Below the pieces are notes generated by a model. That model was not told where the DNA came from and did not search any database. It saw nothing but the letters and a program-made list of their open reading frames with translations. From a virus: 63,478 bases of DNA. The stretch covers positions 1 to 63,478 of the IMG/VR virus record IMGVR_UViG_3300009596_000001; one strand, written 5' to 3'. The position numbers were made by a program, and so were the translations under genes. Every line of letters starts with the position of its first letter. The first letter of the stretch is position 1. Shown here piece after piece: positions 17,597 through 62,054 of this stretch.

Positions 17597-17597
17597 T

Positions 17598-42781: not shown

Positions 42782-43651
42782 ATGAAGATTGGTAAGTTTT
42801 TCAAGAGGGCGTTGGGTGGTGCTCTGAAGAAACCGCTTAAGACGCTTTTGATTGGTGGCGGGTTAGCGATGACTGGCTTGTTGGGTGCTGGGGCTAAGGC
42901 TGCTGCAACAAAACTGTTGGGTAAAGCGGGGGCTGCAAAATTGCTTAAAGGTTCGGCAAAGAAGTGGTTGCCTTGGCTCGTAGGTGCAGCGGCTCTTGGT
43001 GGATTTGAAAGGAAGAAAATTCGCCCTGAAACTTGGACACCGCAGATGCTTCAACCCTACTTAGAGCCATCATCAAACCCAATTGTAGGTGCACTGTATC
43101 AACAACTTGGTAGTTGGCTTGGTTATTCGCCTGCTTCAATTGCAGCAACTGGCGCAGCGACAACTACTGATTTAGGGCAATTTGCTGCGTTACAGGCAAC
43201 CCGACCTACTGATTGGCAAACTGTTGCAATTTCTACTGCTGAAATGATGCGACCTTTGTTTGAGCAACAACTACAGAGACAAATACAAAGTTTGCACGAA
43301 CAATTGGCTGCGGCAGCAGGAACTCCAAGTGGGGGTGCTCTTGTTGAAGGGTTAACTCGGTTTGCAGGTGAAATGGAAAGAGGCTGGATGTCACAAATTG
43401 CAGATATGGCTTTAAGGGAATTAGCACGGCAACAAGAGATGGCACAAAGATGGGCTTCTCTTGCCCCTGAATTGTTCAGAGGGGCATTAGGGATAGCAGC
43501 GGCTCCGACAGAAATGGCACTTAGGATTGCTGAACACTTGCGACCGGTGTATGGCGGCATGCCCGTGTATCCATACGAAATGCCGTCGCTTATTGAGCGG
43601 TTGGCAGACCCATTTGCAGCATGGGTTAGAGCGGGTGTAATTAAGATATAA
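42782..43651 (+). CDS. Ejection-type internal virion protein, 289 aa
   Basis: Starts with a Lys-rich amphipathic helix and Gly/Ala-rich hydrophobic stretches (about 1-70), followed by Gln- and Ala-rich helices. This is the composition of small internal virion proteins released with DNA into the host envelope, such as gp7/gp14/gp20 types. It is the first of four such proteins before the PurD-like gene. GGGGTGA precedes ATG. Confidence 0.6.
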   Translation: MKIGKFFKRALGGALKKPLKTLLIGGGLAMTGLLGAGAKAAATKLLGKAGAAKLLKGSAKKWLPWLVGAAALGGFERKKIRPETWTPQMLQPYLEPSSNPIVGALYQQLGSWLGYSPASIAATGAATTTDLGQFAALQATRPTDWQTVAISTAEMMRPLFEQQLQRQIQSLHEQLAAAAGTPSGGALVEGLTRFAGEMERGWMSQIADMALRELARQQEMAQRWASLAPELFRGALGIAAAPTEMALRIAEHLRPVYGGMPVYPYEMPSLIERLADPFAAWVRAGVIKI

Positions 43652-43687: not shown

Positions 43688-44320
43688 ATGCCTTATATCA
43701 ACCCAATGAGTGCTTCAATGATGCAAGCAATGGCAAGGATGGGCTTAGAACCTGCTGGGGGAGGGTTTGGTGCTGCACTTGCTAATACTCTTGGGACGAT
43801 TGCAGAGGCAATAGCACAGCGTAGGGAAATGGTTACCCAGATGTTCATGACTTTGTTGAACCTGTTGTCTACAAATGAAGAAGCACAAAGATTAATAGCC
43901 ACACCCCAAGTTCAGCAATTTATCAAAACAATGTTTCCAGAGTTGGCAGGTGTGTTTGAGGATGTTGATTTGTGGAAGATGATACAGAAAAGTATTAGCA
44001 GGCAAGGTGAAACTGAAGGGGAAACTACTACTACAACAGTAGAAATTCCGAAACTGTCGGTGCCACCTTTACCTTCTGAAGTATTACGAGAAAGGTATGG
44101 TGTTCCAGCGCCGACTGAACCTACTACATACTTAAATGTGCCGCCTTTAATGCCATTTCCGATTGGTGGTGCATGGAAGTGGTTGTTTCCCGAACCAGAA
44201 TTGACACTTCCGCAGGTTGTTGCGGGACAAGAACCTTTCCCGCTGACTGAGTATCTAAGTAATGTTCCCTACAGTATCATTCCTGCGGTGTTGGGAACAA
44301 CTTCGGGTAGAAGGAGGTAG
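43688..44320 (+). CDS. Ejection-type virion protein, 210 aa
   Basis: Not recognised. Ala- and Gln-rich helical N terminus, Pro-rich middle and short hydrophobic C terminus. Located between other internal proteins; GAGGTG precedes ATG. Confidence 0.55.
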   Translation: MPYINPMSASMMQAMARMGLEPAGGGFGAALANTLGTIAEAIAQRREMVTQMFMTLLNLLSTNEEAQRLIATPQVQQFIKTMFPELAGVFEDVDLWKMIQKSISRQGETEGETTTTTVEIPKLSVPPLPSEVLRERYGVPAPTEPTTYLNVPPLMPFPIGGAWKWLFPEPELTLPQVVAGQEPFPLTEYLSNVPYSIIPAVLGTTSGRRR

Positions 44321-44325: not shown

Positions 44326-46611
44326 ATGAATGGCAACATTCAAGATTATCGCCTTCGTGTTCAGCAGGCGATAACCGACCCTTTTTCTCCCCCACCTAAT
44401 ATAAGCGAGATAATGGATATGCTTGGTGCGGGGAAAGCGCCATCTTTTGATGAAATCAGACAACAATACTTATCTTCCGCTCCTGAGTTTGCTGTTAACT
44501 TTTACCGCAACCTTAGGACGCCAGAAGGAGCCCAAAACTTTTTCCAGATGGCGTTTCGTTACCCTAAGACAGCGCAAAGGTTGCTTGGTGTTGTTCGGAT
44601 GTTTATTCCATTTGTCTTGCCTGCGGAAGAAATGCAAGCACGATTGGAATGGAATGAAAAAATTCGTGACGACACAAACGAAAAATTTGCTCGTGCACTA
44701 TCCATTCACAACACGATTATGGGATGGCGTGAGCAGAAATTGGCTGATATAGTTGATGGTTTGATTACAAGGTTTGGGGTTGCGACAGACCCAGAAACCT
44801 TTGCTCGGTTGTGGCAAGATATGAGTAGGTTTGTTGGAACTCCTTACTATGACAAGATATATCCTAATGCTGTTTTGAGTGCAACAAGGATTATGCGTTT
44901 GCGACCCGAAACGCAGTTGTGGTTTCAAAGGAATTTACCCCCAGATGTTTACAATGCTGCCATGACGATGGTTATAAACGAACGAAAGTATCAAGAATTT
45001 TTGGCGAGGATGATGGATATCTACATCACTGAAGCGGAACAATTTCTTGAAGGGTTGCGGGAGTTTGGGTTGGATGACAAAATGCTTGAGGCTGCTATAG
45101 GTGCAGCAAAAGAATTTTCGCAACTCGTTGCTACTATTCCAAGAGAAGAATTGGATGTTAAGATGGAAAATATATCCAAGCAACTTTTGTCCGCCATTAC
45201 AACCGCCAGTTATAAGGCTAAACCAACGATTGGGACAATGATAAATCAATTTACCCAACTTGTGACAGGGCTTATAAATCAGATTGGAACTGGAACAACG
45301 CAGACGGTCAACCAAGCCATGTCAGAGTTTAGCCGATTTGCCAACATTGTTGGTGGACGGGTTACAACAACCCTTGAAGTAGATAATCAAGGCAAAGTGC
45401 TGCTTACTTCTTGGGAGAAGATTTTGGATGAATTAGAAGAAAAAGTGAAGAGGATGATAGATAGGTTGGCAAAAACTGGGCTTTATCCGACAGAAACGCT
45501 GGAAATTCTTTTGTCGCATATTCAAGCCAAGAAGGGCGTAGTTCGGTTTGGTCGGCAGATGTTGACTGACCTTCAAAATGTGATGAACACTCCAGAGGTT
45601 ACGAATTTGCTGTCCAAGGCAGCGCAACAGCAGTTAACTCAAAAATTAAGGCGAGCACAATTAGATACTGCATTAACGAGATTGGCAGGTTTGCGCCAAG
45701 AATTACAAAGCAAGCAGTGGAAAAGCGAGTATGACAAATTACACCGGTTTTTCCAAGACACACGGGGTTATTTACAAACAATTTCATCTTGGTTAAAAAC
45801 ATTAACACCAAGAGATTTAACAGATAAGGATGTTACATCTGTTTTACGGTCGGCTTTGAATATGGCAAGGATTGCTGCCAACCCAGAAACGGCAAGATAC
45901 TTAGGACCGGGAGTAGACGAGCAACTTAGAAGCAGGATACTTGCCGACATAGATGCGGCGTTGGCGCAATTAAACCAAGCAGAAGGAAAACATGCAAGTC
46001 CGCAACAATTGCAGGGGCTTCTAAATCACCTTAACAATTTAGTTCCCAGATTGTTGAATATCTTAGACCAAACCTACACAGCGATGTATAATCTCTTACA
46101 AGCCCAGAACATCTTACCGACGACATCAAGTTTACCGCCAAGTGCATTGCAATATGGTGGGTTGTTGCCTTATATTGGGCAACAACAAGCGCAGCCAGAA
46201 ATCCATATCCATGTTGAAGGTGCTCAACAAGGTCAACAACCCGTTCCTATTATGCCAGCGCCTTATGGCGGGCAATACATTGGTGACCCTACTTGGGCAA
46301 CAGGTGGGGGAGTGACTGGCGAAACGAAAGGCAAGAAGCAAACTACTCAAACTCCCGTCAAACCGACTATACAACCGACTACCAAACCAATTACTAAACC
46401 GACTACCCAGCCAACTACTAAACCGACTACCCAGCCAACTACTAAACCGACTACCCAGCCAACTACTAAACCGACTGCTAAACCAACTACCAAACCAACT
46501 ACCCAAACACCAATTTCAGGCAGACGGAGAACAACAAGTAGACCTGAACAAAAAACATTCTGGCAACGATTAATGGAATTCTTAGAAAAACACCCGGGAT
46601 TTATTTACTAA
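44326..46611 (+). CDS. Large helical virion protein with Pro-Thr repeat tail, 761 aa
   Basis: Mainly alpha-helical, with coiled-coil-like stretches (about 355-520). Residues 665-735 are a TTKPTTQP-type linker encoded by 24-bp repeats, then a basic Arg-rich segment and a terminal helix. The tail may be a flexible tether. Position before the giant protein suggests an ejection or core protein. AGGAGGTAGGAAGG precedes ATG. Confidence 0.7.
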   Translation: MNGNIQDYRLRVQQAITDPFSPPPNISEIMDMLGAGKAPSFDEIRQQYLSSAPEFAVNFYRNLRTPEGAQNFFQMAFRYPKTAQRLLGVVRMFIPFVLPAEEMQARLEWNEKIRDDTNEKFARALSIHNTIMGWREQKLADIVDGLITRFGVATDPETFARLWQDMSRFVGTPYYDKIYPNAVLSATRIMRLRPETQLWFQRNLPPDVYNAAMTMVINERKYQEFLARMMDIYITEAEQFLEGLREFGLDDKMLEAAIGAAKEFSQLVATIPREELDVKMENISKQLLSAITTASYKAKPTIGTMINQFTQLVTGLINQIGTGTTQTVNQAMSEFSRFANIVGGRVTTTLEVDNQGKVLLTSWEKILDELEEKVKRMIDRLAKTGLYPTETLEILLSHIQAKKGVVRFGRQMLTDLQNVMNTPEVTNLLSKAAQQQLTQKLRRAQLDTALTRLAGLRQELQSKQWKSEYDKLHRFFQDTRGYLQTISSWLKTLTPRDLTDKDVTSVLRSALNMARIAANPETARYLGPGVDEQLRSRILADIDAALAQLNQAEGKHASPQQLQGLLNHLNNLVPRLLNILDQTYTAMYNLLQAQNILPTTSSLPPSALQYGGLLPYIGQQQAQPEIHIHVEGAQQGQQPVPIMPAPYGGQYIGDPTWATGGGVTGETKGKKQTTQTPVKPTIQPTTKPITKPTTQPTTKPTTQPTTKPTTQPTTKPTAKPTTKPTTQTPISGRRRTTSRPEQKTFWQRLMEFLEKHPGFIY
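46399..46470. repeat. Three exact 24-bp tandem repeats in coding sequence
   Basis: Copies at 46399-46422, 46423-46446 and 46447-46470 encode the Pro-Thr linker; degenerate copies flank them. The repeat number is likely to vary among relatives. Confidence 0.9.
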
Positions 46612-46640
46612 CCAATACTTGAATATTGGAGGTGTGAATT

Positions 46641-49600
46641 GTGAGGAAGCAAAGGACGGATGTATTTGACAAGAACTTCGTTGCGTCTATGCTCTTTGAG
46701 GAAGGGTTGCGAGCGGGTGTTCCACTGCCTTCCTTGTTCAGTTGGTTCTACATTATGAACTTGGAAGGTGGCAGCCCCTATGCTGTCACTGTAGAAGGCA
46801 ATAAAACACGCTCTTACGGTCCTTTCCAGATTAACGATGTCCATGCAGAAGAAATTCGGAAAATGGGTTTGCGGTTTCCGCAGGATATTTATGCAACAAG
46901 AGATTTGCCGCCAGAAGAAGTCAGGCGGCGCATACAGAACCACATTCGTTATGTCATTCAAAGAGACAAGCAAATTCGTGAGCGGTTGAAGGCATTGAAC
47001 CCTCAACTTTACAATGCTGTTTTTAATGTAGAGTTCGGACAAGTTAACCCTATGGCTTTACAGCATTTGATTGGATATTACATGGCTTCTTGGAATGCCC
47101 CTGCTTTTGCCGACAATGTAGCAAGGGGCGACTTTAGACCATTAGCACCGGGTGTTGCTGTCTATCGGCTTGCTGATGCAAGACGAAGGCAAGAAGCCTT
47201 CCGAGAAGCAATTCAGATGTGGCAAAACATTACGCAAAGTTATGTAAGACAACAATCGGAGAGGGTGTATGGTGAAGTTTCAAAGGCTATTTCTGCAGCA
47301 CTTGATGCCGGGCGAATTCGTGTCAGGACAGGTAGGGTGCCAGTTTCTGCTGTTTCACCTTATCAAATCCGAGATGCCATCGTTCCCAATGTGATTTCCG
47401 TTATTCCCCAAGTAAGTCAAGCCGCTAAGATGTTATCGCCAGAACATATCCGAAGATTACGACAAGAATTTCCAGAAGTAGAGAGTATGATACCCGTGAC
47501 GACCAAGACCCCTCATGAATATGTTGCTGCGTTGTCTCTTATCGGCGAACTTGCAAAACAACGAACCGAATTTGCTCAAGCGTGGAACTTGTTGCCTAAA
47601 CCTGTCAGACAACAAATCCTGTCAACTATTGTAAATTACAGCCACAAAGTTAGTGGGGCAAGGGATGAAAAAGCCAAAAAGAGAATGATTGTTGAGGCGA
47701 CGACCCAATTAGCGGCGATGCTTACCCCTCGGGGTGCTGTAGAAGAAACCAAGCGGTTTGCATCGGCGTTAGGTCAGGAAGTATGGGGCTTCATCACTGG
47801 AGTTGTAAAAGAAGCAGTATCAATTCCTGCTATATTTGTTGCAGCGGCTAAGAGTGGCGAATTAAAGAAGGTTTGGTCTTACTTGGACAAGGTTAGGTCA
47901 ACAAGAAAGGGAGTAGATAAAGTTGCTGCCGAAATTGCTTATGCCGCTGTTCATAACAATCCCGCCATTTCATTTGCTTGGGGTGGAATTGTAAAAGGGT
48001 TGGCACATATGGTTGGCTCAGTTCTTGTAGGAATTCCCGAAAAGATATTTGAGTATGTGCCCGATAAAGTGCCGGGCGCAAAGGTTATAAAGCAAAAACT
48101 ACAGGAAGCACTTCAATTTATTGATAAGTCGCTCGGTCCTATGATAGTTTCTGAAAGCATCAAACTGTCCAAAGACCCCAATTTCAGAAAGCAACACTTA
48201 GACGATGCTGTTATGTTCCTTGCTGCGTCGGGTTTAAGACATTTGTTGGATGTTCGTGCGGGTAGATATATTCCAACAGAACAAGGATGGGAACTTTATA
48301 CTGCTACACTCTTGCAAGGTAGAGTTTACGAGATTTTGAACAACGCCTTACGCACTCAGACTGGCGACCACTGGGCATTTAGGTTAATATCAGAAGCCAA
48401 CTTAACAGATTACAGGGCAACGGGTCCGCTTATCGGGATATTTGCTACTGGCGGTTTGTTAGGTGCTGCAAAACTTGCAAGAATGGCTTTAAGCGGGATA
48501 AAGGCAGCAGAAGCACCTGTTGCTGCAGCAGCGCTTGCTGAAACTGGAAACCTTGAAGCGGCGTTAATGATAGGGCGTGGGTTGGGTAACTTGACAGCAA
48601 GGCAAAGATTGGTTCACGGCGCTCTTGCAACCGCACAAGCGATTATTACCCCCGGGCATATGTTTGAACGCTTTTTCACAAGGGTTGGGTTGAATACTGC
48701 TTTGAAGCGGATGGGGATTGATGGCATTGAAGGGCTTAGGGCAATTGCTGCAACTGAAGGTTATCAAGCAGCATTAGACATTCTCCATCAAGTTGCTCCC
48801 AAAGTCTCTGGCTTTTCCAAAATTGCCAGTTCCTTTATCACAGGTGCTGCTTACACTTGGGGCGGGATGCCATCACACTTCAGTAGTCCCGGGGAAGCAA
48901 TAGGTCACTTTGTTGGCGGGACGCTCGTCAATATGCTGTTTGACTTACCTTACATCTATCACGGCAGTGTGGAATTAATCAAAGGCACAAAGAAGCCAAG
49001 GCATGAAATTCTTCGTAACCCTGCTTTTGCCCCTATCATTGCAGCGGTTTATGAGGAAGGTTTTATCCAACAAGCGCTACGAAATCCTGATATATTCAAG
49101 ATGTTTATAGACCCCCGCATTTTAACCCGCTTACATGCTGTTGCTGACCTTAACGCAATGGAGCGCACATTCACTCCCAAGAAACAAAGTCGGGCGTTGT
49201 TTGTGTTGAACATTCCCACCGAAAACGAAGTAAGGACATCAAAGCGAATTGAGGAAACATATGCAAGGGCATATGAAGCCCTGCCACCAAGCGATGTTGA
49301 ACTTGTGGGGCGCATGTTGCACGCTTATAAACTGTTTGAAGACGCAAAAGAAGCGGCGAGAAAGAAACACAAGTTACCCCAAGATGTTGAAAAGCCTGAA
49401 GATATGACTATAGAGGAGTGGCATCGTGAAATTGTAAGAATTTGGGGCGAAAAGATGTTTAAGGAGCAGGTTTGGGGCAAGAAGTTTGATATTAGGGATT
49501 TGGCGAAGGCTACAGCAGCACTTCACATTTTAACCCATGCAAGGTGGTTTGCCGACTTCTTCTATTCCGAAGACCCAGAAGCAGCACAACAAATGTTTAG

Positions 49601-52600
49601 GCAGGTTTTGTGGTATGGGCTTAACCGATTGCGCAGCGCTTTGGATGCGGTTAAAGATGTAAAGCCTCATACAGCGGTTGAGGAAGATAACTTGTATCAC
49701 AGCATTGTTGACCGGTTTATATCGGAGTTTTATGGCGGATTTCCCGTCATCGGAGAGTTGATGAAGTCATTGATGGCTCATCAACTAACGCTGTTTGGCG
49801 CTGTCAAAATTGCAGAGGGGGCGAAGATAGCAGGAAAATCCCCTGAAATGCTTGTAGAGCAAGCAGATATTGCAATAAGGGAAATGAACAGAATTTTCAT
49901 GCGTAACTTACCCGAGTATCTTATCCGATATACTCAAGGGTTAAGTGTTGAAGGTGTGCGTGAGTTGTGGGAGAAAACCGTTGAGCCAGAAATGAAGCAA
50001 CAAATTAGTTTGGTTGTTGAACCATCCACTATCGTAACCTATGCAAAGGAACTTCTTGATGAACTGACCGCTAAACTTAGGAAGGGTAGGGCTGCCGCTC
50101 AATTCGTGACACCTTGGCGGCGGATGATTAGAGCCCTTAATGCTTTGGATGCAGCAATTCGGGCAGAAAAAAGGCAACAAGAAGCAAAGAAATTTGCCGA
50201 AGAAAAGGCAATAGAAGAAGTGATGAAGGCACAACAAGCAGCAGAAGGTCAAGTTACAGGAGAAGCGCCTGTTCAAGAGCCCACAACAATTGAAGTTCCG
50301 CCCGAACAAAAACTTACCCAACAACCTACGGTTGAGCAAGTTGAAAAACCCACTACACCACACGGCGAGGGCATTATTCGGGCGGGAGTGACTTACCCTG
50401 CTGTGTCTTCGTTGCTAAAACCTGCGGAGTATGTTCCCATGCGAAGATGGACGGACATGCGTGACTGGGGCGATGACTATCTTCCCGCTCCAATGATGGA
50501 AGACAAAATAACGGTATTGCCTAACGAAATGTGGCGGAATGCTTGGATGTCCCTTCCGGAAAGACCCGCAAATATAGAAGAATACATACGGGCTCTTGAC
50601 ATTGCAACAACAAGTTTTGCTTTGTCCTTCTTTATGCATCCCGAAGTTCAACCTAAATTCTTCGGTAGCCATATACCTTCTATAGCAATTGTTTCTGCCG
50701 ACTTAGCCCGAAAGATAAAAGAAAACCCTTACTATACATCGCAATTTCACATTGTTGCTGTAGACGCCGGTCCAGTCCAAGAAAGAAGCCCTTATGAAAC
50801 CGATGAAGTGTTGTTGATAATGGGGAGTAACCAACACTGGACGCCAGAAAGTTTGCGAAGGTTTGCTCAAAGTGTTCAGACTATATTCTGGAGCCAAAAA
50901 ATACCTCACGAATTTTGGGAGTTCGTTTTGGATGCGTGGAGCAGGGTGGACAAGAAGGATATGCCTAACATCGTGCGCTTTTTGTTCGCTGCATTACCGG
51001 GGATTAATGAAACTCCCATCCTAAGGCAAAGAATGGGATTGGATAACGATGCTGTTTGGGAGAGAGTAGTAGAATTCATCAACGAAGACCCTGAATTCTT
51101 CTATGGAGATTGGCTGAAAAAGAACATAGAAGAGATTGTGAATGGCATAATCCAACGGGAACTTACTCATTTTGGTGTAAGTCCAGCCTTTAACTTACCT
51201 GAACGGGTTATTGACGGGTTGCGAGCAGCCCGAAGCATTTTCCCCTTAGAAACTCCCTATCAAGCAATAGCAAATGCGATGCTTATAATTTCTGCAACCC
51301 CAATTAGAAGCGAATATCACTCAAGAATGTTGAAATCTCCCGCTGCATATCTTGTGAAAGCGCTTGTTCCAGACACAGTAAGGGGAGATTGGCGTGAAAC
51401 AATGAGGACAATCAGGGAACAATTTTTCATTCCCTATTTGCAAGCATACTTGTTTGGTTCAAGGCGTGAGGGTAAAGTAGAAGTGGTTGAAGGCGAATGG
51501 GATATTCGGGTTGACCGAAACACCAATACAGTTGTATTTTCCATCCCGCCAGAAGAAGAAGCCTCGTTCTGGGCATATTATGCACTTGCCGTTCAAACCG
51601 CATCTGAATTTTATGATACCCGTTACTTGTTACCTTCTCGGACTTCACCTTCTCGTGCTGATTTGTTCAACTTCTCCCCACCAAGATTGTTTGAAGAGTT
51701 TATCCGGTCACGGGCACCGCAACAGGTTGTTGATAAGTTAGAGCAGGTTAGCGAAATTGCACAATTGGGTAGGATTAATGAACTTAGAGGGATTAGCCTT
51801 GAGCCCATAGATGTAGCAGTAGAGTATCAATCAATCGCAGGATTTGCTTGGGCTGTTCCAGAAGTAACGGCAAGTATAATAAGAAGCCACACTGAATATT
51901 TGCGTGACATTTTAAGGCATGATTTGAGTAGAAGTCCGGAGTTGTTGCGGGTAATAGAAAGGATTAGTGGGAAAGAGGGGTTGGATAATGTCGTTGAATG
52001 GCTTGAAAAGAACATTCAGGTGTTGTTGATTGCCCAAAGCATGGCGCCAGTCGCATTCACCTTAGGACCCGCACACGACCTGCCAATTGCAGGTGCTTTT
52101 ATCCCTCATAGTTTTTCACATCCAGCAAGACCGCTGAAGTCTTTCCTGTGGTTTAGCACACTGAGTTCATTAATATCAAAAAGCCTTCACGAAGTATTTC
52201 ACCTTATTACCCATGTAGACGAGCAACCCACTTTCAGGACATTAGTTGACGCTTTAAACAGGGCGGAACCAGAAACAAGAAGGAACGCCATCCTATTTAT
52301 TTTGAATTTGGCAGACCAATTATTATCGGCTGGAACTAAATGGGCTTCTCTATATGGAGTATCTCTCCTTTATTTGCTCAAATCCATAGACCCACAACTC
52401 GGAAAGTTAAGCAGAGCAGTTATCCCTATAAGTGGCGACTTCTATGATGGTGTGATTTCAGCACTTAACGGGTTAGAAAGTAGGGTTAGAGATTTGGCAA
52501 AACCCTTGGGAATTGATGCTGATGTTATGTTTAGACCCTTGTTTGATGTTACGGGTCGGTTGAAAGATATGCTTGAAATGTCCAAGCGGTTGGCAGCGAT

Positions 52601-55600
52601 GGTTTCTGATGGTTTGGGTGTGACATTCACCCAAACCGTTGAAACCGCAAGGGCATTCTTGGAGATGGTTGAACAAGGAACTTTTGTAGACCCGCAACTG
52701 TTTGCTCAATTTGCTCGGGCTTATCCCGAACAAGCAGCACTAATTCGGCAGGTAATAACTGAACAGGTTGTTAACGCTGACCTTAAAGCAATAAAAGATA
52801 TGGTGGATTACTACGATACTACAAACACACCTATTGATGCCGTAGAATACTTTGCAAGGCGAGAGGGAATTCCCTTAGACGAGGTTTTTCGTCACCGAGA
52901 ATATTTACTTGACCCAACTGAAATAATGTCTTATTGGGGTTATGATTTTAGCGCTATTATACAGTTTCTTGCCAGCAAATACCCCGACGAATTTGCAGCA
53001 TTTGTGGAAGTGTTGTCGCAGGTTTATCCTGCAAGCGAGCGACTTGTTAGCGATGCTTTTGTAGAGTTAGTAAGGTCGCCTATGACGGCTCAATTGTATG
53101 ACCAAGCAGTGCAGTATATTCGGCAATTAGGCTTAGATACGGTATTCAACCCTCGTGAATGCATCAAAGCAATGTTTGCCCTTTCGGCAAGGCTTGGTCA
53201 AAATATAAACTTGTTGGACATAATTACGCCGTTAATGGACAAAATCGTAGATGACACTACTGCAAGGTGGTTGTATGCAGGAATATCTCCTATTATTCCG
53301 ACGACTTTGCCGCATAGACGGTTTTATGCGAAAGGACCGTCGGCTGTTGAAGAGGCTATGAAACGATTTCCTGAATTGTTTGAACCAAAAGAAGAACCGA
53401 CAGTGGAACCAAAAGAAGAACCGAAAGTGGAAGAACCTAAACCCGAAGAAGTAACTAAGCCGCCAGAGGCTCCAGAAGAAGACAGGACAGCAGAAATTCT
53501 CCAGAAAATTATGTATAGAACAGTTCTACCGCAAGAAACCGTCCAAACCCTCATGAAATTGGCAAAAGCGCCATTGCCTCAAATTAGAAGCATATCGGAA
53601 CTTCAAAGTAGGCTAAGAGAGGCGATGGAGCGATTTGTTGTTGAAATGGAAGCGGGCGTAAAGGTTCGGTATGATGATTTTATGATGAAAACCATAGCGG
53701 AACTACCAGACGATATTTCTTACCCTCAATTCTTAGCGCAAGCGGCATTACGAAAAAGTAATGTAGACCCCGTTGCGAGATTATTGCTCACCGACGAAAG
53801 ATATGAAAGGGCTCGTGTCATTGCCTTGTCCCTAACTGCACAAGTGTTTGAAATTTTCCGAAGTATGGGCTTCTTGCATCCGTTGTCCGAAGCGGTTAAC
53901 TTTATGCAAGAAAGGACTGGCGGTTGGACTAAGCGGATGGTAAATGCAATTTCGGCAAGATTGGGTGCGTATTGGAATGTAGTAGAACAGTTCTTGACCG
54001 AAGGTGAACAGAATAGAAGGCTACAAAGAAGGATACTCGGCGAAATAGGGGTAAAGCCACTAAGCGCCAAAGAACTTGGAGTATTCTTGTTCACAAAGGC
54101 TATGGAAGATATCCAATTCATCGCCCTCAAATATGCTGACCAACTGTTGACACAAATAGAACAAACCTACACACGAAGGGTAAGGGAAGCAGTTCGTAGC
54201 GAACGACCATCACTGCGAAGGCGGTTAATCTCTTTGTTGGAGAAGAATTTGTTGCCCTATATAGACAGAAGCGACGCTGAATTAGAAGGTGTCCTTAGTA
54301 GAGCAGCAGATGCTGTCGTCAAACTCAGTAGGCAACCTTACAAAGAATATCTTCCAATTCAAGTTGATGAGGGGCAAGTATTGGCGCAAGTTGCGGAGAA
54401 ACTGAAGATAATTACCGCAACTTTGAAGCAACATCCCCCAGAAAACCGACCTGCCGTTTTGAGGCGATTGATTGGAGGAATTTTGGATAGGGCTGTCTTG
54501 GCAACATTCTCCAGAAAGTTTACCGAAAAAGAGCGGGCACACTTGCGTGGGTTGTTGGCACACGCTATTGTAAACGATATCATCAATTTCACCTACAGCG
54601 ACAGAGTGTTGAGCACTCTTACCGAAAATATTGCTGCGATGAATGCGATGTTAAGGCGCAGGTTAGTCCCCAATCCATTCTCCAGCGCAGAACAATTTGC
54701 TAAGTTTAATGGGTTACCAGCAGAGGCTGTAAATGTCGTCTTGCGGCGTGGACGAGAGAAATGGCGTGAATTTGTTGAAAACTTGTATTCCTACAGGTCA
54801 CTTGCTGATGTTTGGAAAGCAATCGGTAATTTTGTGTCAGAAGTATCGGCTATAAAAACCCATCATCAAATTGATGTAAATCCGTTCGGCGAATTCATGC
54901 TTATGTATGCAAGGGACATTGTTGTCCCCAAAGAAAGATGGGAACCGCCAGAGACAGCGTTACCGCCACTTACAACAAGGGATGAGGTCAATCGTGTAGC
55001 AGAAACTCTGCCTTTTTCCTACGCAGAATTAGCCAGAGAACCTTCCGATGTAGTGCAACTGTTTGTGGGCTTCAAGAATGTGCTGTCCGAAGTGATGGGT
55101 TGGATGTCCCGAATTCTTCAATCTGAAATGTCTTACGAACCGCCAGAAACTTTCCAACCGCCAAGGACATTCCGTAGTATTTTCTACCCTGTTTTAGAGC
55201 CAGACAAACTGTTCAAACATCCAGTAGCATTATCCAGCGACCGCATAGTGATTGTTGCATTAGTCCATGACATACTTTCTGACATTTTACATGGAAGCGA
55301 AAAAGACAGCGCTTGGGAGCGTGGCGTTTACGATGCAATACTCAGAAACCTTTCCAGTTTCCACAAAGGCGCTCTAAAGAACCCAGCAGCAGTGACAAGG
55401 CTTGAGGGTGACGAAGCGGTCTTATGGGGTTATGCCAAAGAAATACTCAAAACAGATAATACCGTAATTCAGGATTTACAGGCATTGGGCTATGGAATTG
55501 CAGATGCATACATAACCCAAATTACAATGGGAGAAGCCATTGACATATTCGCCTTCATGCAAGAAAGAATTCAGCGTGGACTTGCGGAAATAATTCAGCG

Positions 55601-58600
55601 CCACCCGAAGATTACTGACTTATTGTCCCAAATTAGGGGAAGTGACCCAGAGAAAGCCCAAAAATTCAGGGACATCCTTGAAGGCATTACTATGTCCTAT
55701 ATTGCAGAAAAATTGACTTCTGAGTTGATTAAAGAACGTAAACCCAAACACATTCACAAACCTTGGGAAGAATTGCTAACCGAAGAGGACAGACAACTCT
55801 TCAATGAGTTACGAAACACTTTCTCCATACTTAACCTTGCAGCCGTTTTTGACAGGGCTGATAGGATATCCAGAAGACTGCTTTGGACTGACCCGCAGGA
55901 TGTCCGAGCACATCAACTTTTTGAGTTCTTGGATGCCGCTTGGCACTACAAGATTATGCAGCCTATCCGCAGGTTACCTGTTTACCGATACTCACAGACA
56001 GCATCTCTTATTGAAAATGCACAATTTGTCTTGAGCGCTTTACCTTCTTTGCTTGAACGAGGGCTTATTTCAATAGCCGACAGGAACAAGGCAGAAGTGG
56101 CACTGAGGAAATTCCTTGAAGATGCTTCCCAACTGGAGAGAGACCCTCAAGGTAGGTTAATCATGCCTGTTGAAATAGCAAATAACTTGTTTAGGGCTTT
56201 GAATGAACTCGGTGCAAAAGTTTTCAGAATGCTTGCTTATAATACTGCAAGGGTAGAAATTCCCGCTAAAGACCAACACACCCTTGAATTTAGATATTTC
56301 GGAGATTTGGTGGCGTTTGCCAAAGCGAGGTCTATCCTCGGGTTTGAATACGGCAAAAGGCTTAAGGAATTCTACGAAGCATATAACCAACTATACCACC
56401 AAATTCCGCAAAGCATGCGCAGAGGAATTCCCACCCCAGAAAACCTTACCAGAGTGGCTGCTGCAGCGGCTCTGGAAAGCGTTGAATATGTTTTGAACAC
56501 ATCCAAGATAGACGAAAATGTGTTGACGCAACCGATAATTGAAGTTATCGCTGGGATGTTCCAGAAAATTTTCGCTTACTACGACAACCAATTCAAACAA
56601 CTCCGCAGCAGATTTGCAACACCGCAGACAATGGAAGAGGGTAAAAGGGTAGTAGTAAAAGGAGAAGATATGATGGTGTATGCTCATCACTTCAAAACAA
56701 CTGCGGATGAATTCATCAAAGCCATCACAGGGTTGGGCAACTTGTTTAATCTGTATCACCAAGTGTTGGACTTCTCGCAAAAAGAATATCCCAGAACCAT
56801 TGGTGTTGAGTATATGTTAGAAGACCTGATAAATGCTTGGATAACTTTTGGGGCACCACGGCGGGAAATTCGCAGAAAGCAACTTGACGACATTCGGAAG
56901 CAACTTGAAGCCGTAAATGAGTATGATTTACCTGAAGAAGAAAGCATAAAGATAGAGCACATTATAAGCAGTCTTGATGAGGAAAATATATGGGGGATGA
57001 TTATAGGCGTAGAGGATGAAGAAACTGGCGAAATCAAAAGATACGGGTTGCACCACCTTTCTGAAAAGACACTCAACCTTCCCGAGATAAGGGAAGTCGT
57101 CAATATTCTCTTGGAATACTACCGCCATAGGATGACACATTGGCTTATTGGACAGAGAATTGGTCATTTCCCAGCACCCGTCAAAGAAGCAATCATAGAA
57201 ACATTGAGGGCTATTGCTGAACAAAGACAATCAGCGAAAAGGCAGATAGAGCAAATTACACAGACGCTGGAGAGAATGGATGCTGGTAGAATACTTACCA
57301 AATTCTTGTATGCACTCAGCGCTGGCGCTACTCTGGCTACAGTAGCACCCTACATCCCTGAATTGGTCTTCAATGTATTCCCCGCAATGTTGCATGATAT
57401 CGGCAGGGGTATTTCGCAAATGGTTCACCTGTCCATGACGAACCCAATGTGGGTAACCACAATGTTAGGCGGCGCTCTTGCTTTGTTGTTCCGCTCACGA
57501 AGGCTCGGCGGAATTTCCAACATCTTGGGTGGCTTACTTGTAAGTATTTCAAGATGGATGAACACCCAGTTGCCCAACATTAGACAAGCGTTGCAGGGTG
57601 TGGGTAGTGAAATAGTGAACAAGATTACGACTTCAATGGGTAGTTATTGGGGTGCGCTTGCTGCAGCGTTAGTTAATTCCATTGAAGTTCCAAGCGTTTA
57701 TAATGACATCCTTGTGGCGCAAATGACTGCTAATACAGTCAATCAAATGACCTTCAAGGGTAGTTTTCCCGGTTCTGGAAAGCCATCACGGCAGATGGCG
57801 GAAGATATCGTAAACCATTCTTGGGCAAGTGCAGTATTACAACAAGGTTCGTTGCTTGGTGCTGCAATTCACGATTTGGCAAAGGCAACCGAAGCAAGGC
57901 TCATCATGAAGCATGGCATCCCTGAATTTTTGCAAAATCCCAACAAACAAGAAAGTTTGATTTGGGACTTGGCTGTTTTGAAGGCTTTGTCGTTACTGTC
58001 CCGTCACGGTCAAGCGGCACTGCAACAACCCTTCAAAAACTTCTACAAACGCTCCCCAATCGCTTTGGCTGCAGCGTCGGTTATAGACCCTGCAACAGGA
58101 CAAAGAGTTAGATTGGCTTTAACGACAAATGTAGCAGAAGTAACCATCCAAGGCACAAAGGTGGTGCTGGATAATGTTACTTTGGGAGATGTTATTCGGT
58201 ATGGGTTAGGAGGCGTTACTACAGCGGATGTAGATGCCCTCTTTAACGCAACAAGTCCAGCAGCATTCAAAGCGGCATTGAGGCGATTGTATTCAAACCA
58301 CCGTGCTGCTTTGCAGCATCGGATTAGAACTGGCTTATTGGCTCACATGGATGAAAAGTCCGTTCAAGCAATTCGCTTCGTTTCCGATTGGATATTGCCT
58401 ATCGCCAAAGGTTTGATGCTGCCCAAAGAAAAACCTTACTTGGCTGTTGCCCTCGCAAACAGCAGAGAGGCTCAGTTGGCGTATCTGATGAATTTGCGAT
58501 ATCTACAACTTATCATGTCTCTTCCGTTTACCCGTGACCTTCTGGCTCCGTTGGGATTTGACGCCAACAGTTTGGCAAGGGAGTTAAATGCTGTATGGAG

Positions 58601-61600
58601 TTCGTTGGCTCAAATGGGTGTTCCGAGCAACATTATTGAAGAAGCCGATAAGGCGATGTGGCAAGTTAAAGCAACCGTCAATGCAACTGTGAAAGAACTG
58701 ATGAAGCGACCAACATCACCACAAGCAGCAATGAAGCGTATCCGTGAAGTGTTAGGGCAAGCGCAAAAGGTAATCTCCAGATTGTTCAGTATGGTTGCTT
58801 ATACCCGTTACACTCCGCTGGCAAAGCAAATGAAGGGCAAACTTGCGCCTACAATGCTTGGTTCTCCGTTCCTTGCCCTTGAAGCCGATTTAAGACATAC
58901 TACCGTCCGCATGTATAACGAACCCTTTAGACAAGACTTCTTCTCTGCTGCATCTTCTACTTTCCCCGACGAAATCCTTGCGTTGCCTGAAGTTATTCAA
59001 CTGGAGAATGCACTTAACGCAGGTAAGGTTACCCCAATGCAAATGTTGGCAACTTTAGAAAGCAGAATGGATGCTTTGTTGACGGAGTTGGCGCAGGCTT
59101 CTGGCAGAAGAAAAGAAGAAATTGAAGCAGATTATAACAGGATACTTTATGCCGTCTACAAGTATGCAAGCAATACTGTTGATGATGCCCATAGGGTTCA
59201 CAGAGTGGAAGATGTTTTCGCCAAAGGTCTTGTCGCTTTGAATGCACCGGTAGTTTTAGACCCACGCAGGACAACATCGCCAGCAGTTGCACAAATAAGG
59301 ACAAAGTTGCTTAAACTTGCTGTTCCTTATGCCGTGTTGATGAACTACCTTGTAAAAATGTATGCTATGCGTGCATTTCTGGAAGATATGTATGTTGGCA
59401 TGGAGCCGTCTTTCGGCTTAACCGAAGAAAGATATGTGCCACAATGGCATGACTTGGCACTTAACCCCGGGACAGTCTTAGCGGATATGGTTCTTCAGAC
59501 TTTTGATAGATTGCCGACAAAGATGACTAAGAAACCGTTTGAGTTCAAGAGGACAGGTCTTGCGGAGATTAACGATGCCGATTTCAGAAATATCATGCGT
59601 CGTGGACTGTATGCTTTGGCTTCCAAGCATGTATTGAATAAGCATCGCCCTGTTGTTGAGGCTGTAATCGGTTTCATGCCGCCGCCGTTTAAACAAATGC
59701 TTGCGTGGCAATTAGCAAATACTCTTGCGCCTTTGCGTGTTGGAGAACAAGGTGGAATTCCATTGACTTACGAAATGGGAGAAGATATCGCCAATGCCAT
59801 CCAAGAAATGTTTAGCCTTGTCGGTCAATATTACCTGAACCAAATGCGTGCTATGGAAGGGTTGCCGCAAGATAAACTAACTGCAGTATTGTCAGCATTC
59901 CAAACTCAGTCTCTGATTTTCCAACTCAGGTCGCCATTCAGGCAAATGGGTTCATTGATTTATGCTGGAAGCGCTTTGTCCAGAGACTTTAACGACCCTG
60001 TTGCGTTCATCATGCCCATCCTGTTCTTCCCTCGTGCACTCAAGATTGTTAGCCAATACATGACAGGAAAGCAACCAAAACTTAATATCCTTGAGCGGGT
60101 TGTTCTGGAGAATTCGCCCGAATTGTTCTCCCGCAGAAGTGTAACCGAACGGGCAATATTGGAAGGTGCAAGGGAAGCAATTAACACGATAATGATGCAT
60201 CCAGAAGGTGCGAAGGCTGTAGAGATACTGTTAGACCCAACGGCAAGCAGGGCTGACAAGGATAAAGCGATGGACTTCATCCAGCAGGTGTTTATTGTTG
60301 GCGGCGAACCGACAAGGCGGAACAAGTTTAAGTCCGCTGTCAGTAAATGGGGCTTCTTCTTGTTGAGGTTAATGGATGAAGCAGCGGTTTTGGCAACAAA
60401 ATTGGCAGCAGTCCACACTTACATGGCACATCAAGATGTAACTGGAACTTATGACTTTAACACTATTCATGCAGCAATTAACTACGGTTCTGCTTTTAGC
60501 GAACGAGTTCACGCAACACCACTTGAAGGTTACAGACCAACCCTGTTCAGAGGACCGGCTGAAAGGAAACTTTCAATCAAACACCTATTCTTCATCCCGC
60601 AAGTGTTCAGTCAGTTCCTTGTCTACACATTCGCAACAGCGGACAACTTCAGGATGATGCTTGGCGATATCTACGACAATATCGTCAGGAAAGACATTCC
60701 TTTGAAGGAAAAGATTGCAAACCTTGCAACAGCAGCAACGGCAATTATGGCATTGCAGTTAGGAACTGCTATCTTCAACGGTGTCTGGGTTGGTCTAACT
60801 CAGCGTGTCCTTGAAGACCAACCCATCGGAATTTGGACGAAAGAGGAAGAAGAAAGGGATGTTTTAGGCACATTTGAAGGTATGGCTGCTGCAATGACCA
60901 AATCGGCTATGCCAAGACCCGCATCTTTCGTTATTTCCTACTTCCTTGCATTGACGCCGCTTCGGTCAATGATACTCAAGAAAACTTTGTTGGGTAACCT
61001 AACAGAACGAGACTTGCCGCCGTTAATGCGGTTGGGTTATCGGAGTTTGGGCGAGACAATAAGTATCTTAAGCAACCTTACCGCAATTTCCGATACCGCT
61101 GGGGAAGATAAAGGCATCCTGCAGAAACTTTGGGATGCTGTTACAGTGACATATCCGAGAGAGCAAATTCCAAGCACCTTGATTGACCTTGCACAATTTG
61201 CAAGCATCCTTGCCGCTCCATATGTCCCAGAGGCTGGCTTGTTGCCGTTCGGGCTTGTTTCCCCAGCAGTAAGGGCTGTTATAGGCAGCGAGGAACTTCC
61301 TGTCGCAGCGGAGATTACCGAAACATTCGCAGGGCGACCTACAGCAGCAAAGATAGTTCAATCCATGACAGGAATTCCCGCACCGTTTGGATACTCAGAG
61401 ATATGGTCGCCAGCACCGGCAGATATTGCATTCAGGTCGGCAGAAAGAAGTCCAATTAGGATGGCTTACAAATTCGTGAATGAAACTGAAAGAAGCACAG
61501 CGGCTGCTTATGTGGCAGAATTAGTTAGGGTCGCAAGAACAACAAGAATTGGACCGACCTTAAATGCTATCAGGCACTTACTCAATCCATCGTTCTATTT

Positions 61601-62054
61601 GGCTATCCAATCTCCGACAAGACTTGATGCTGTGCCCGAAGGGGTTTCCGAAAGGCATCCGTTTGTTGCAGCAGTCACAAAACTACATAAAGCGTTGCAA
61701 TCTCCAACTGAAGATGAATTTATCGCATTTGTGCGAAATAACCCATATGACTTTGCTTGGCTCAATGTTATGTGGGGCTACGATTACATAATGGACAAGT
61801 GGATTTCGGGTGCAGGTAAGCCAGAGTGGCATAAACACTACAGAAACACAAATGTCCTTGCTGCTGCGTTGGCATCACAAGGTATGAACCCGCAGGCAGT
61901 ATCGGCTTTGGTGCAAATCTTGGAGACTTCAAAGGAACACAATGTAGCGAAATTCTTGGATGCCCATATAATTAGGTTGCGTGAAAGAGAGACCCTTAGA
62001 CAAACGGTAAGAAAGCGTGCCAGACTTCAGCATCTAAAAGGAGGGGGTAGTTGA
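46641..62054 (+). CDS. Giant composite protein, 5137 aa: lytic transglycosylase-like plus HExxH
   Basis: One uninterrupted frame, about 24% of the genome. N terminus (about 1-195) is lysozyme/transglycosylase-like: catalytic-type Glu42 in NLEGGSPYAV and RSYGPFQIN, the motif of gp16-like ejection enzymes. A zincin motif HEVFHLITH is at residues 1850-1858. Two Glu/Pro/Thr-rich linkers (about 1200-1243 and 2248-2283) split it into three large helical segments. Hydrophobic segments occur near 600, 3560-3620 and 4710. The C-terminal part (about 4260-4800) resembles LPD38-like polyvalent-protein sequence. No polymerase motif (DxDGD or T7-type A/B/C) was found. It is probably packaged and ejected into the host. 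The start is GTG with GGAGGTG 5 bases before. Confidence 0.85.
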   Translation: MRKQRTDVFDKNFVASMLFEEGLRAGVPLPSLFSWFYIMNLEGGSPYAVTVEGNKTRSYGPFQINDVHAEEIRKMGLRFPQDIYATRDLPPEEVRRRIQNHIRYVIQRDKQIRERLKALNPQLYNAVFNVEFGQVNPMALQHLIGYYMASWNAPAFADNVARGDFRPLAPGVAVYRLADARRRQEAFREAIQMWQNITQSYVRQQSERVYGEVSKAISAALDAGRIRVRTGRVPVSAVSPYQIRDAIVPNVISVIPQVSQAAKMLSPEHIRRLRQEFPEVESMIPVTTKTPHEYVAALSLIGELAKQRTEFAQAWNLLPKPVRQQILSTIVNYSHKVSGARDEKAKKRMIVEATTQLAAMLTPRGAVEETKRFASALGQEVWGFITGVVKEAVSIPAIFVAAAKSGELKKVWSYLDKVRSTRKGVDKVAAEIAYAAVHNNPAISFAWGGIVKGLAHMVGSVLVGIPEKIFEYVPDKVPGAKVIKQKLQEALQFIDKSLGPMIVSESIKLSKDPNFRKQHLDDAVMFLAASGLRHLLDVRAGRYIPTEQGWELYTATLLQGRVYEILNNALRTQTGDHWAFRLISEANLTDYRATGPLIGIFATGGLLGAAKLARMALSGIKAAEAPVAAAALAETGNLEAALMIGRGLGNLTARQRLVHGALATAQAIITPGHMFERFFTRVGLNTALKRMGIDGIEGLRAIAATEGYQAALDILHQVAPKVSGFSKIASSFITGAAYTWGGMPSHFSSPGEAIGHFVGGTLVNMLFDLPYIYHGSVELIKGTKKPRHEILRNPAFAPIIAAVYEEGFIQQALRNPDIFKMFIDPRILTRLHAVADLNAMERTFTPKKQSRALFVLNIPTENEVRTSKRIEETYARAYEALPPSDVELVGRMLHAYKLFEDAKEAARKKHKLPQDVEKPEDMTIEEWHREIVRIWGEKMFKEQVWGKKFDIRDLAKATAALHILTHARWFADFFYSEDPEAAQQMFRQVLWYGLNRLRSALDAVKDVKPHTAVEEDNLYHSIVDRFISEFYGGFPVIGELMKSLMAHQLTLFGAVKIAEGAKIAGKSPEMLVEQADIAIREMNRIFMRNLPEYLIRYTQGLSVEGVRELWEKTVEPEMKQQISLVVEPSTIVTYAKELLDELTAKLRKGRAAAQFVTPWRRMIRALNALDAAIRAEKRQQEAKKFAEEKAIEEVMKAQQAAEGQVTGEAPVQEPTTIEVPPEQKLTQQPTVEQVEKPTTPHGEGIIRAGVTYPAVSSLLKPAEYVPMRRWTDMRDWGDDYLPAPMMEDKITVLPNEMWRNAWMSLPERPANIEEYIRALDIATTSFALSFFMHPEVQPKFFGSHIPSIAIVSADLARKIKENPYYTSQFHIVAVDAGPVQERSPYETDEVLLIMGSNQHWTPESLRRFAQSVQTIFWSQKIPHEFWEFVLDAWSRVDKKDMPNIVRFLFAALPGINETPILRQRMGLDNDAVWERVVEFINEDPEFFYGDWLKKNIEEIVNGIIQRELTHFGVSPAFNLPERVIDGLRAARSIFPLETPYQAIANAMLIISATPIRSEYHSRMLKSPAAYLVKALVPDTVRGDWRETMRTIREQFFIPYLQAYLFGSRREGKVEVVEGEWDIRVDRNTNTVVFSIPPEEEASFWAYYALAVQTASEFYDTRYLLPSRTSPSRADLFNFSPPRLFEEFIRSRAPQQVVDKLEQVSEIAQLGRINELRGISLEPIDVAVEYQSIAGFAWAVPEVTASIIRSHTEYLRDILRHDLSRSPELLRVIERISGKEGLDNVVEWLEKNIQVLLIAQSMAPVAFTLGPAHDLPIAGAFIPHSFSHPARPLKSFLWFSTLSSLISKSLHEVFHLITHVDEQPTFRTLVDALNRAEPETRRNAILFILNLADQLLSAGTKWASLYGVSLLYLLKSIDPQLGKLSRAVIPISGDFYDGVISALNGLESRVRDLAKPLGIDADVMFRPLFDVTGRLKDMLEMSKRLAAMVSDGLGVTFTQTVETARAFLEMVEQGTFVDPQLFAQFARAYPEQAALIRQVITEQVVNADLKAIKDMVDYYDTTNTPIDAVEYFARREGIPLDEVFRHREYLLDPTEIMSYWGYDFSAIIQFLASKYPDEFAAFVEVLSQVYPASERLVSDAFVELVRSPMTAQLYDQAVQYIRQLGLDTVFNPRECIKAMFALSARLGQNINLLDIITPLMDKIVDDTTARWLYAGISPIIPTTLPHRRFYAKGPSAVEEAMKRFPELFEPKEEPTVEPKEEPKVEEPKPEEVTKPPEAPEEDRTAEILQKIMYRTVLPQETVQTLMKLAKAPLPQIRSISELQSRLREAMERFVVEMEAGVKVRYDDFMMKTIAELPDDISYPQFLAQAALRKSNVDPVARLLLTDERYERARVIALSLTAQVFEIFRSMGFLHPLSEAVNFMQERTGGWTKRMVNAISARLGAYWNVVEQFLTEGEQNRRLQRRILGEIGVKPLSAKELGVFLFTKAMEDIQFIALKYADQLLTQIEQTYTRRVREAVRSERPSLRRRLISLLEKNLLPYIDRSDAELEGVLSRAADAVVKLSRQPYKEYLPIQVDEGQVLAQVAEKLKIITATLKQHPPENRPAVLRRLIGGILDRAVLATFSRKFTEKERAHLRGLLAHAIVNDIINFTYSDRVLSTLTENIAAMNAMLRRRLVPNPFSSAEQFAKFNGLPAEAVNVVLRRGREKWREFVENLYSYRSLADVWKAIGNFVSEVSAIKTHHQIDVNPFGEFMLMYARDIVVPKERWEPPETALPPLTTRDEVNRVAETLPFSYAELAREPSDVVQLFVGFKNVLSEVMGWMSRILQSEMSYEPPETFQPPRTFRSIFYPVLEPDKLFKHPVALSSDRIVIVALVHDILSDILHGSEKDSAWERGVYDAILRNLSSFHKGALKNPAAVTRLEGDEAVLWGYAKEILKTDNTVIQDLQALGYGIADAYITQITMGEAIDIFAFMQERIQRGLAEIIQRHPKITDLLSQIRGSDPEKAQKFRDILEGITMSYIAEKLTSELIKERKPKHIHKPWEELLTEEDRQLFNELRNTFSILNLAAVFDRADRISRRLLWTDPQDVRAHQLFEFLDAAWHYKIMQPIRRLPVYRYSQTASLIENAQFVLSALPSLLERGLISIADRNKAEVALRKFLEDASQLERDPQGRLIMPVEIANNLFRALNELGAKVFRMLAYNTARVEIPAKDQHTLEFRYFGDLVAFAKARSILGFEYGKRLKEFYEAYNQLYHQIPQSMRRGIPTPENLTRVAAAAALESVEYVLNTSKIDENVLTQPIIEVIAGMFQKIFAYYDNQFKQLRSRFATPQTMEEGKRVVVKGEDMMVYAHHFKTTADEFIKAITGLGNLFNLYHQVLDFSQKEYPRTIGVEYMLEDLINAWITFGAPRREIRRKQLDDIRKQLEAVNEYDLPEEESIKIEHIISSLDEENIWGMIIGVEDEETGEIKRYGLHHLSEKTLNLPEIREVVNILLEYYRHRMTHWLIGQRIGHFPAPVKEAIIETLRAIAEQRQSAKRQIEQITQTLERMDAGRILTKFLYALSAGATLATVAPYIPELVFNVFPAMLHDIGRGISQMVHLSMTNPMWVTTMLGGALALLFRSRRLGGISNILGGLLVSISRWMNTQLPNIRQALQGVGSEIVNKITTSMGSYWGALAAALVNSIEVPSVYNDILVAQMTANTVNQMTFKGSFPGSGKPSRQMAEDIVNHSWASAVLQQGSLLGAAIHDLAKATEARLIMKHGIPEFLQNPNKQESLIWDLAVLKALSLLSRHGQAALQQPFKNFYKRSPIALAAASVIDPATGQRVRLALTTNVAEVTIQGTKVVLDNVTLGDVIRYGLGGVTTADVDALFNATSPAAFKAALRRLYSNHRAALQHRIRTGLLAHMDEKSVQAIRFVSDWILPIAKGLMLPKEKPYLAVALANSREAQLAYLMNLRYLQLIMSLPFTRDLLAPLGFDANSLARELNAVWSSLAQMGVPSNIIEEADKAMWQVKATVNATVKELMKRPTSPQAAMKRIREVLGQAQKVISRLFSMVAYTRYTPLAKQMKGKLAPTMLGSPFLALEADLRHTTVRMYNEPFRQDFFSAASSTFPDEILALPEVIQLENALNAGKVTPMQMLATLESRMDALLTELAQASGRRKEEIEADYNRILYAVYKYASNTVDDAHRVHRVEDVFAKGLVALNAPVVLDPRRTTSPAVAQIRTKLLKLAVPYAVLMNYLVKMYAMRAFLEDMYVGMEPSFGLTEERYVPQWHDLALNPGTVLADMVLQTFDRLPTKMTKKPFEFKRTGLAEINDADFRNIMRRGLYALASKHVLNKHRPVVEAVIGFMPPPFKQMLAWQLANTLAPLRVGEQGGIPLTYEMGEDIANAIQEMFSLVGQYYLNQMRAMEGLPQDKLTAVLSAFQTQSLIFQLRSPFRQMGSLIYAGSALSRDFNDPVAFIMPILFFPRALKIVSQYMTGKQPKLNILERVVLENSPELFSRRSVTERAILEGAREAINTIMMHPEGAKAVEILLDPTASRADKDKAMDFIQQVFIVGGEPTRRNKFKSAVSKWGFFLLRLMDEAAVLATKLAAVHTYMAHQDVTGTYDFNTIHAAINYGSAFSERVHATPLEGYRPTLFRGPAERKLSIKHLFFIPQVFSQFLVYTFATADNFRMMLGDIYDNIVRKDIPLKEKIANLATAATAIMALQLGTAIFNGVWVGLTQRVLEDQPIGIWTKEEEERDVLGTFEGMAAAMTKSAMPRPASFVISYFLALTPLRSMILKKTLLGNLTERDLPPLMRLGYRSLGETISILSNLTAISDTAGEDKGILQKLWDAVTVTYPREQIPSTLIDLAQFASILAAPYVPEAGLLPFGLVSPAVRAVIGSEELPVAAEITETFAGRPTAAKIVQSMTGIPAPFGYSEIWSPAPADIAFRSAERSPIRMAYKFVNETERSTAAAYVAELVRVARTTRIGPTLNAIRHLLNPSFYLAIQSPTRLDAVPEGVSERHPFVAAVTKLHKALQSPTEDEFIAFVRNNPYDFAWLNVMWGYDYIMDKWISGAGKPEWHKHYRNTNVLAAALASQGMNPQAVSALVQILETSKEHNVAKFLDAHIIRLRERETLRQTVRKRARLQHLKGGGS

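Follow-up and report, generated by a model that had tools for sequence, protein, structure and literature searches.

A giant, nearly cysteine-free phage protein with a transglycosylase-like N terminus is probably an enlarged ejection protein of a short-tailed phage

The window analysed here, the whole viral stretch of 63,478 nucleotides, carries exact direct terminal repeats of 123 bp and is therefore probably a complete genome, and a single gene taking up 24.3% of it encodes a protein of 5,137 residues. Since this protein combines a T7 gp16-like place in the gene order with a transglycosylase-like N terminus and a near-total depletion of cysteine, we read it as a pilot protein that is ejected and acts in the manner of T7 gp16. 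Quite likely, it is the largest of the ejection (pilot) proteins with which a short-tailed phage is equipped, and it is about four times larger than gp16. We do not file it as a member of the gp16 family, because its size and the result of sequence comparison both set it apart; its appearance is that of a familiar component, greatly enlarged, and not of a novel type of machinery. The intact and conserved frame, the transglycosylase motifs with their fold ranking, the gene order and the depletion of cysteine are features of the sequence itself, from which packaging, ejection, copy number, tunnel and hub roles, and zinc and protease activity would be predicted.

An intact giant gene and its relatives

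The frame of the giant gene contains no internal stops, as given by the ORF analysis, and opens behind a likely ribosome-binding site (Table 1). A scan of viral contigs with the capsid protein retrieved four close relatives, two of which reach the giant gene and carry it as a single open frame (lengths counted from the first M), and a scan with the nozzle protein added L029, with an N-terminal giant-protein fragment of 1,256 residues. Because the orthologues are intact single frames, the giant ORF is no assembly or frame artefact, and the first-pass annotation was right to describe an uninterrupted gene of 5,137 residues covering about a quarter of the genome, as borne out by the ORF, the GGAGG and the orthologues. 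No RNA families were found in the window.

Identity to the two orthologues, per 100 residues, is 57-63% over residues 1-200, 34-61% over 401-1100 and 24-43% over 1301-1700, falls to 14-32% over 1901-3500 with the exception of residues 2501-2600, which are mostly gapped (3-4%), and reaches 36-59% over 3701-5100, so that, among long stretches, conservation is highest at the C terminus and not in the middle. Searching both halves of the protein against 50,697 phage records, including T7, gave no tblastn match at E<=1. When viral contigs were scanned with the single sequences of the HExxH region and of the C terminus, no relative was returned; such nulls mean little, because two relatives exist and were found by the capsid scan. 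A terminase scan reached distant loci only, with six records in which the giant protein's C-terminal 1,404 residues had no match, genome contigs scanned twice held no relative, and PDB sequences searched with profiles of the HExxH region and of the C terminus yielded nothing meaningful. The giant-protein family, having no match in the phage records searched, thus appears to be new. Among the terminase relatives, the shorter ORFs of L002-L006 match only about residues 268-461, the C-terminal part of the large terminase, and may represent split terminase genes.

Table 1. Features of the giant gene and of the structural genes upstream of it (positions in the window)
Feature	Position	Strand	Evidence or remark
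Portal, SU10_portal	26818..28848	+	E 2e-14, above cut-off
Major capsid protein	37526..38476	+	86-89% identical in four relatives
Adaptor, SU10_adaptor-like	40421..41194	+	E 4e-5, 24.5 bits, below 27-bit cut-off
Nozzle-like protein, 518 aa	41211..42767	+	Position and phrog_3287 virion structural protein; 67-75% identical in relatives
289-aa protein, hydrophobic Gly/Ala-rich N-terminal part, Cys-free, T7 gp13 position	42782..43651	+	Gene order
210-aa protein, Cys-free, T7 gp14 position	43688..44320	+	Gene order
761-aa protein, Cys-free, T7 gp15 position	44326..46611	+	Gene order
GGAGG, likely ribosome-binding site	46629..46633	+	Seven bases upstream of GTG
Giant gene, 5,137 aa	46641..62054	+	GTG start; orthologues of 5,065 and 5,053 aa
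Lytic transglycosylase/lysozyme-like domain, about residues 10-200	46668..47240	+	E42, YGxxQIND and WNAP invariant in 4/4
Pro/Glu-rich linker 1 (residues 1191-1253)	50211..50399	+	Not conserved
HEVFHLIT (residues 1850-1857), candidate zincin active site	52188..52211	+	HExxHxxT invariant in 3/3 full-length proteins
TEIMSY (residues 2093-2098), E2094 candidate third zinc ligand	52917..52934	+	TExxSY invariant in 3/3
Pro/Glu-rich linker 2 (residues 2229-2295)	53325..53525	+	Not conserved
C-terminal 1,400 residues (3700-5100), well conserved	57738..61940	+	45-52% identity to orthologues; no known family

Gene neighbourhood

The run of nozzle, 289-, 210- and 761-residue proteins and giant protein repeats the T7 order gp12, gp13, gp14 (196 residues), gp15 (747) and gp16 (1,318, with a transglycosylase), with similar sizes at the gp14 and gp15 positions; these gp14 and gp15 labels rest on order and size, not on homology. 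The capsid gene and the gene at the nozzle position have PHROG matches to head or virion families, and the 761-residue protein is 31-32% identical in the relatives. Profile searches of PDB sequences gave nothing meaningful for the 761-residue protein and the nozzle, and none for the portal. The podovirus-like location after nozzle and ejection-type genes, proposed from the letters of the sequence at the outset, agrees with this order, with the SU10-type portal and with the SU10-like adaptor. The giant gene closes the structural run: the one gene after it is an ATP-grasp-like gene (62051-63451, plus strand, Pfam E 0.024), which overlaps its end and lies directly downstream in both relatives, and no distal tail genes follow.

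Several other loci of the window may be recorded here. Right after the portal gene, a 192-residue ORF (28851-29429, plus strand) has a HEFIH motif and 4.2% cysteine and is possibly a small zinc protein, and two ORFs lie between the portal and tail-fibre-like genes (29567-31599, plus strand), the first of which weakly matches a glycosyltransferase (E 0.0028). On the minus strand, nine consecutive ORFs of 169-185 residues occupy 13463-18113, where the GC skew reaches -0.5; six of them, from 15044 to 18113, look like clear paralogues that share a CxxC close to the N terminus, and one of them had no match in phage records. Beside them, a DUF2201 metallopeptidase/VWA gene, matched by 95 phage records at E<=1e-3, adjoins an AAA (AAA_5) ATPase gene (18146-20653, minus strand), a pair that presumably recalls N4 gp24/gp25.

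N-terminal transglycosylase-like domain

Lytic transglycosylases are laid out with a catalytic Glu followed by GxxQ and AYNxG-like motifs. The four available N termini, in an alignment that includes the L029 fragment, share LE42GGSPY, EGNKTRSYG, QIND and YYMAxWNAPA without variation, and these motifs match that layout. A PHROG transglycosylase match (E 0.00067) was obtained in one of the three members. An AlphaFold model of the domain, built from three sequences, had a mean pLDDT of 73, and when 281 Foldseek candidates were realigned to it by structure, the first 26 of 44 rows, at Z 4.2-7.1, comprised 23 named lysins or lytic transglycosylases, two cell-wall hydrolase/NLP-P60 proteins and one unnamed phage protein, the next row being an unrelated chain at 3.2. 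Z values below 8 are weak taken alone, as the tool warns, and it is the agreement among rows that matters.

Plain Foldseek with the same model returned 46 matches at E<=10, cyclins first, and none at E<=0.001; the profile search of PDB sequences with this region was weak only (insect lysozyme, E 1, motif aligned). The Pfam SLT model PF01464 matched in none of three genomes, though its control was detected in 9 of 14, so that the assignment draws on the motifs, the one PHROG hit and the fold ranking. Together, the invariant motifs and the ranking bear out the lysozyme-like, wall-cutting N terminus that the first-pass annotation had suggested, as a prediction.

The HExxH region

HEVFHLITH begins at residue 1850, with a conserved TExxSY 244 residues further on, in a region where three-way identity is only 2-15% per 100 residues. 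Composition alone would give 0.14 HExxH in the giant protein by chance, so the motif by itself is weak evidence; its conservation is not, since shuffled invariant columns yield such a motif in about 0.1% of trials (P about 0.001). Nine zincin domains of N4-type virion RNA polymerases (vRNAPs) show HExxHxxT and, about 80 residues on, NEFMAW or close variants, a similar pattern with a shorter gap than in the giant protein. Comparison with a profile of these nine domains aligned the motif at a probability of 2%, which is not significant, and it was dropped as proof because other windows scored higher in a 124-window control.

The AlphaFold model of residues 1300-2215 had a mean pLDDT of 61 and about 24-60 around the motif; its structural realignment led to helical bundles, the model being too weak around the motif. 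No Pfam zincin model matched the HExxH region, and MPTase-PolyVal (PF18818) matched in none of three genomes at E<=10. The alignments are shallow, at three sequences, which limits all of these negative tests. The chance that the HExxH region is a zincin is somewhat better than even, and a protease activity is plausible, not established, because neither a zincin fold nor a profile match could be shown. The proposed zincin stands in part: the motif is real and its HExxH is kept in all three proteins, and the fold and the working protease are candidates that the profile and structure tests neither confirm nor contradict. Of the domain-by-domain structure prediction and profile search suggested as a check, the N-terminal domain gave the transglycosylase fold ranking and one PHROG hit, and the HExxH region gave no significant match.

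Linkers, hydrophobic segments and polymerase signature

The two Pro/Glu-rich linkers noticed initially do exist in the giant protein and are kept in neither orthologue, the corresponding stretches there being shorter or lacking the Pro/Glu richness. The idea of processing at the linkers, put forward with them, was rejected on account of this lack of conservation. As for the scattered hydrophobic segments, a single stretch exceeds a Kyte-Doolittle value of 1.6 (residues 384-403, 19-residue window), and the relatives have different ones; hydropathy that could denote C-terminal transmembrane helices is weak in the giant protein, and above-threshold stretches are not conserved. The remark that no RNA polymerase motif is visible was supported: DxDGD is absent from all three full-length proteins, with P23-45 gp96 showing it as a control, and no Pfam or PHROG polymerase match was found at E<=1, a search that had no positive control for the single-subunit type.

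Cysteine depletion

The giant protein contains one cysteine in 5,137 residues, its two full-length relatives contain none, and the L029 fragment has none in 1,256. The upstream trio (289, 210 and 761 residues) holds 0-1 cysteines in total per phage across four phages, so that trio and giant protein together have 1, 1, 0 and 1 in this phage, G007, G009 and L029 (giant gene partial), beside 3, 2, 4 and 4 in the respective nozzles. The virion proteins of this phage are cysteine-poor in general, at a rate of 0.29% over the block from the scaffold to the 761-residue gene; even this rate predicts 15 cysteines for the giant protein and leaves a probability of 5e-6 for a count of one or none.

In T7, P22, N4 and SU10, 13 ejection proteins of at least 190 residues contain 1 cysteine in 10,670 residues, against 368 in 36,233 for 86 other proteins, and 12 of the 13 annotated ejection proteins are cysteine-free vs 10 of the 86 others, the longest of which has 405 residues. 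This count left out proteins shorter than 190 residues (e.g. T7 gp13, 3 cysteines; N4 gp52, none), SU10 beyond 50 kb and overlapping alternative products, and crAss001 and P23-45 were examined apart from it. Ejection labels were taken from the records and general knowledge for T7, P22 and N4, and for SU10 gp20-24 from the available portion of PMC9509320. The rule has exceptions, T7 gp13, an annotated internal virion protein, having 3 cysteines in 138 residues and crAss001 gp45 having 2 in 842. The tape measure P23-45 gp96 also lacks cysteine (0 in 5,002 residues), and the sign therefore marks proteins that travel through a tail, not pilot proteins alone.

In print, as far as the sources consulted extend, a lack of cysteine was found only for N4-type polymerases: PMC2784036 states, in its available text, that N4-type vRNAPs lack cysteine and that this could matter for cell entry (citing Kazmierczak 2002), PMC4837373 notes the same lack in the part available, and the text available from the review PMC8954989 is without the word cysteine. 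With almost no cysteine, the giant protein resembles annotated ejection proteins, which supports the ejected chain predicted by the first-pass annotation.

Discussion

Given these features, it is reasonable to suggest that the giant protein would be packed in the head together with the 289-, 210- and 761-residue proteins, exit by way of portal and nozzle in a mostly unfolded state, as a chain almost free of cysteine, and refold in the cell envelope, where its N-terminal transglycosylase would open peptidoglycan. The following 1,000 residues or so could bind a tunnel that the upstream proteins make, the 1,400 conserved residues at the C terminus could form an inner-membrane or cytoplasmic hub, and the fast-evolving middle (about residues 1300-3500, with the HExxH) may be a protease that trims its own chain or a host protein. 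The giant protein would thus enter the host first, cut the cell wall and help the DNA through. Several points weigh against this reading: sequence comparison matched it to no phage protein, gp16 included, in the records searched, the length lies far outside the 609-1,337 residues that the accessible text of PMC8954989 gives for gp16-like proteins, and depletion of cysteine also fits a tape measure, follows an imperfect rule and occurs in a phage whose virion proteins are generally cysteine-poor.

If the giant protein were instead the tape measure of a long-tailed phage, carrying an enzyme at its N terminus, this would account for the size and the missing cysteine, as in P23-45 gp96, whose paper mentions a metallopeptidase domain in its available part, and also for weak PHROG matches to tail protein phrog_1204 (E 0.013, on the 761-residue neighbour) and major tail protein phrog_88 (E 0.043, over 26 residues of a 136-residue ORF at 39700-40110). 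No further tail-tube match occurs among the 20 right-arm ORFs scanned, however, and the podovirus-type portal, above its cut-off, the SU10-like adaptor and a gene order that ends in the giant gene with no distal tail genes disfavour such a role, which we consider improbable. The chain could also be a polyvalent effector, a multidomain cargo acting on the host, in which the zincin frees or cuts effector domains; this overlaps with ejection and differs in that most of the chain would be effectors and not conduit. A single chain that exceeds 2,000 residues, lies beside virion genes and joins a lysozyme to an HExxH fits that class as described, and a middle evolving as fast as 4-32% identity per 100 residues to the nearer orthologue (1901-3500) fits host conflict. 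Yet neither Pfam nor PHROGs gave a convincing effector domain at E up to 1, conservation over a long stretch is highest at the C terminus and not in the middle, and MPTase-PolyVal and LPD38 (PF18857) each matched in none of three genomes, the LPD38 null being weak because its control was detected nowhere. For such a polyvalent chain, one enzyme domain is well supported and the second is marked by the HExxH motif alone, and we hold this reading to be possible, if rather doubtful.

The protein may, in turn, be ejected and have an HExxH helix that belongs to no zincin and performs no catalysis, a reading to which we give a substantial chance, short of even. The low confidence of the model near the motif, the insignificant N4-type profile and the missing Pfam zincin match all agree with it; the invariance of HExxHxxT and TExxSY in all three proteins amid so little identity, the resemblance to HExxHxxT...NEFMAW of the N4-type domains and the three-sequence limit on the negative tests speak for a zincin instead.

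Compared with known systems, the giant protein shares with T7 gp16 the place of the last ejection gene after nozzle, gp14 and gp15 positions, an N-terminal transglycosylase and the lack of cysteine (one in the giant protein), and differs from it in length (5,137 vs 1,318 residues) and in having no detectable sequence similarity; we know of no HExxH in T7 gp16. The order gp14-15-16 and the N-terminal transglycosylase of gp16 are likewise described in the available text of PMC8954989. The N4 virion RNA polymerase gp50 is also giant, cysteine-free and ejected, with an HExxHxxT domain followed by ExxxW/Y and a large helical C terminus, and PMC12633501, in the portion available, places the HExxH domain in the C-terminal part of N4 vRNAP. 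Gp50 is a polymerase, however, and no polymerase signature was found in the giant protein, which has a transglycosylase at its N terminus, and the profile comparison was not significant. Polyvalent proteins, which the accessible part of PMC5512222 describes as injected with DNA, and the zincin domains fused to lysozyme that it reports in large phage-encoded proteins, resemble the giant protein in being large chains beside virion genes with a lysozyme domain and an HExxH (zincin-like MPTase), whereas the giant protein has no MPTase-PolyVal or LPD38 match and its zincin is a candidate. Since that source already describes a zincin-lysozyme fusion, the combination of transglycosylase and zincin is less novel than the first-pass annotation implied. 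Thermus phage P23-45 gp96, a tape measure with a virion RNA polymerase, is similar in length (about 5,000 residues), lack of cysteine and presence in the virion (packaging of the giant protein being predicted), and differs as a protein of a long-tailed phage with a DFDGD polymerase motif and no HExxH motif found. The novel points are that the protein reaches this size with no polymerase signature found, that its family finds no match among the phage records searched, and that it is placed like gp16.

If the giant protein is ejected, it would exceed the length of any ejection protein of a podovirus given in the available text of the cited sources (gp16-like proteins of 609-1,337 residues; N4 vRNAP of 3,500), and it would sharpen the question, raised in the accessible part of PMC12633501, of how chains pass a channel narrower than the folded protein. 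A bolder possibility, which we think unlikely, is a third architecture of giant ejected proteins, with a T7-type transglycosylase head, a rapidly evolving, protease-bearing middle and a new 1,400-residue envelope hub, and with no polymerase. Should it be true, wall cutting, cargo processing and a DNA conduit would be united in one chain of 5,000 residues passing through a short tail, and near-complete loss of cysteine would mark ejected proteins across unrelated phages. The cysteine test serves as a simple sequence sign of ejected proteins, by which unknown phage genes could be sorted.
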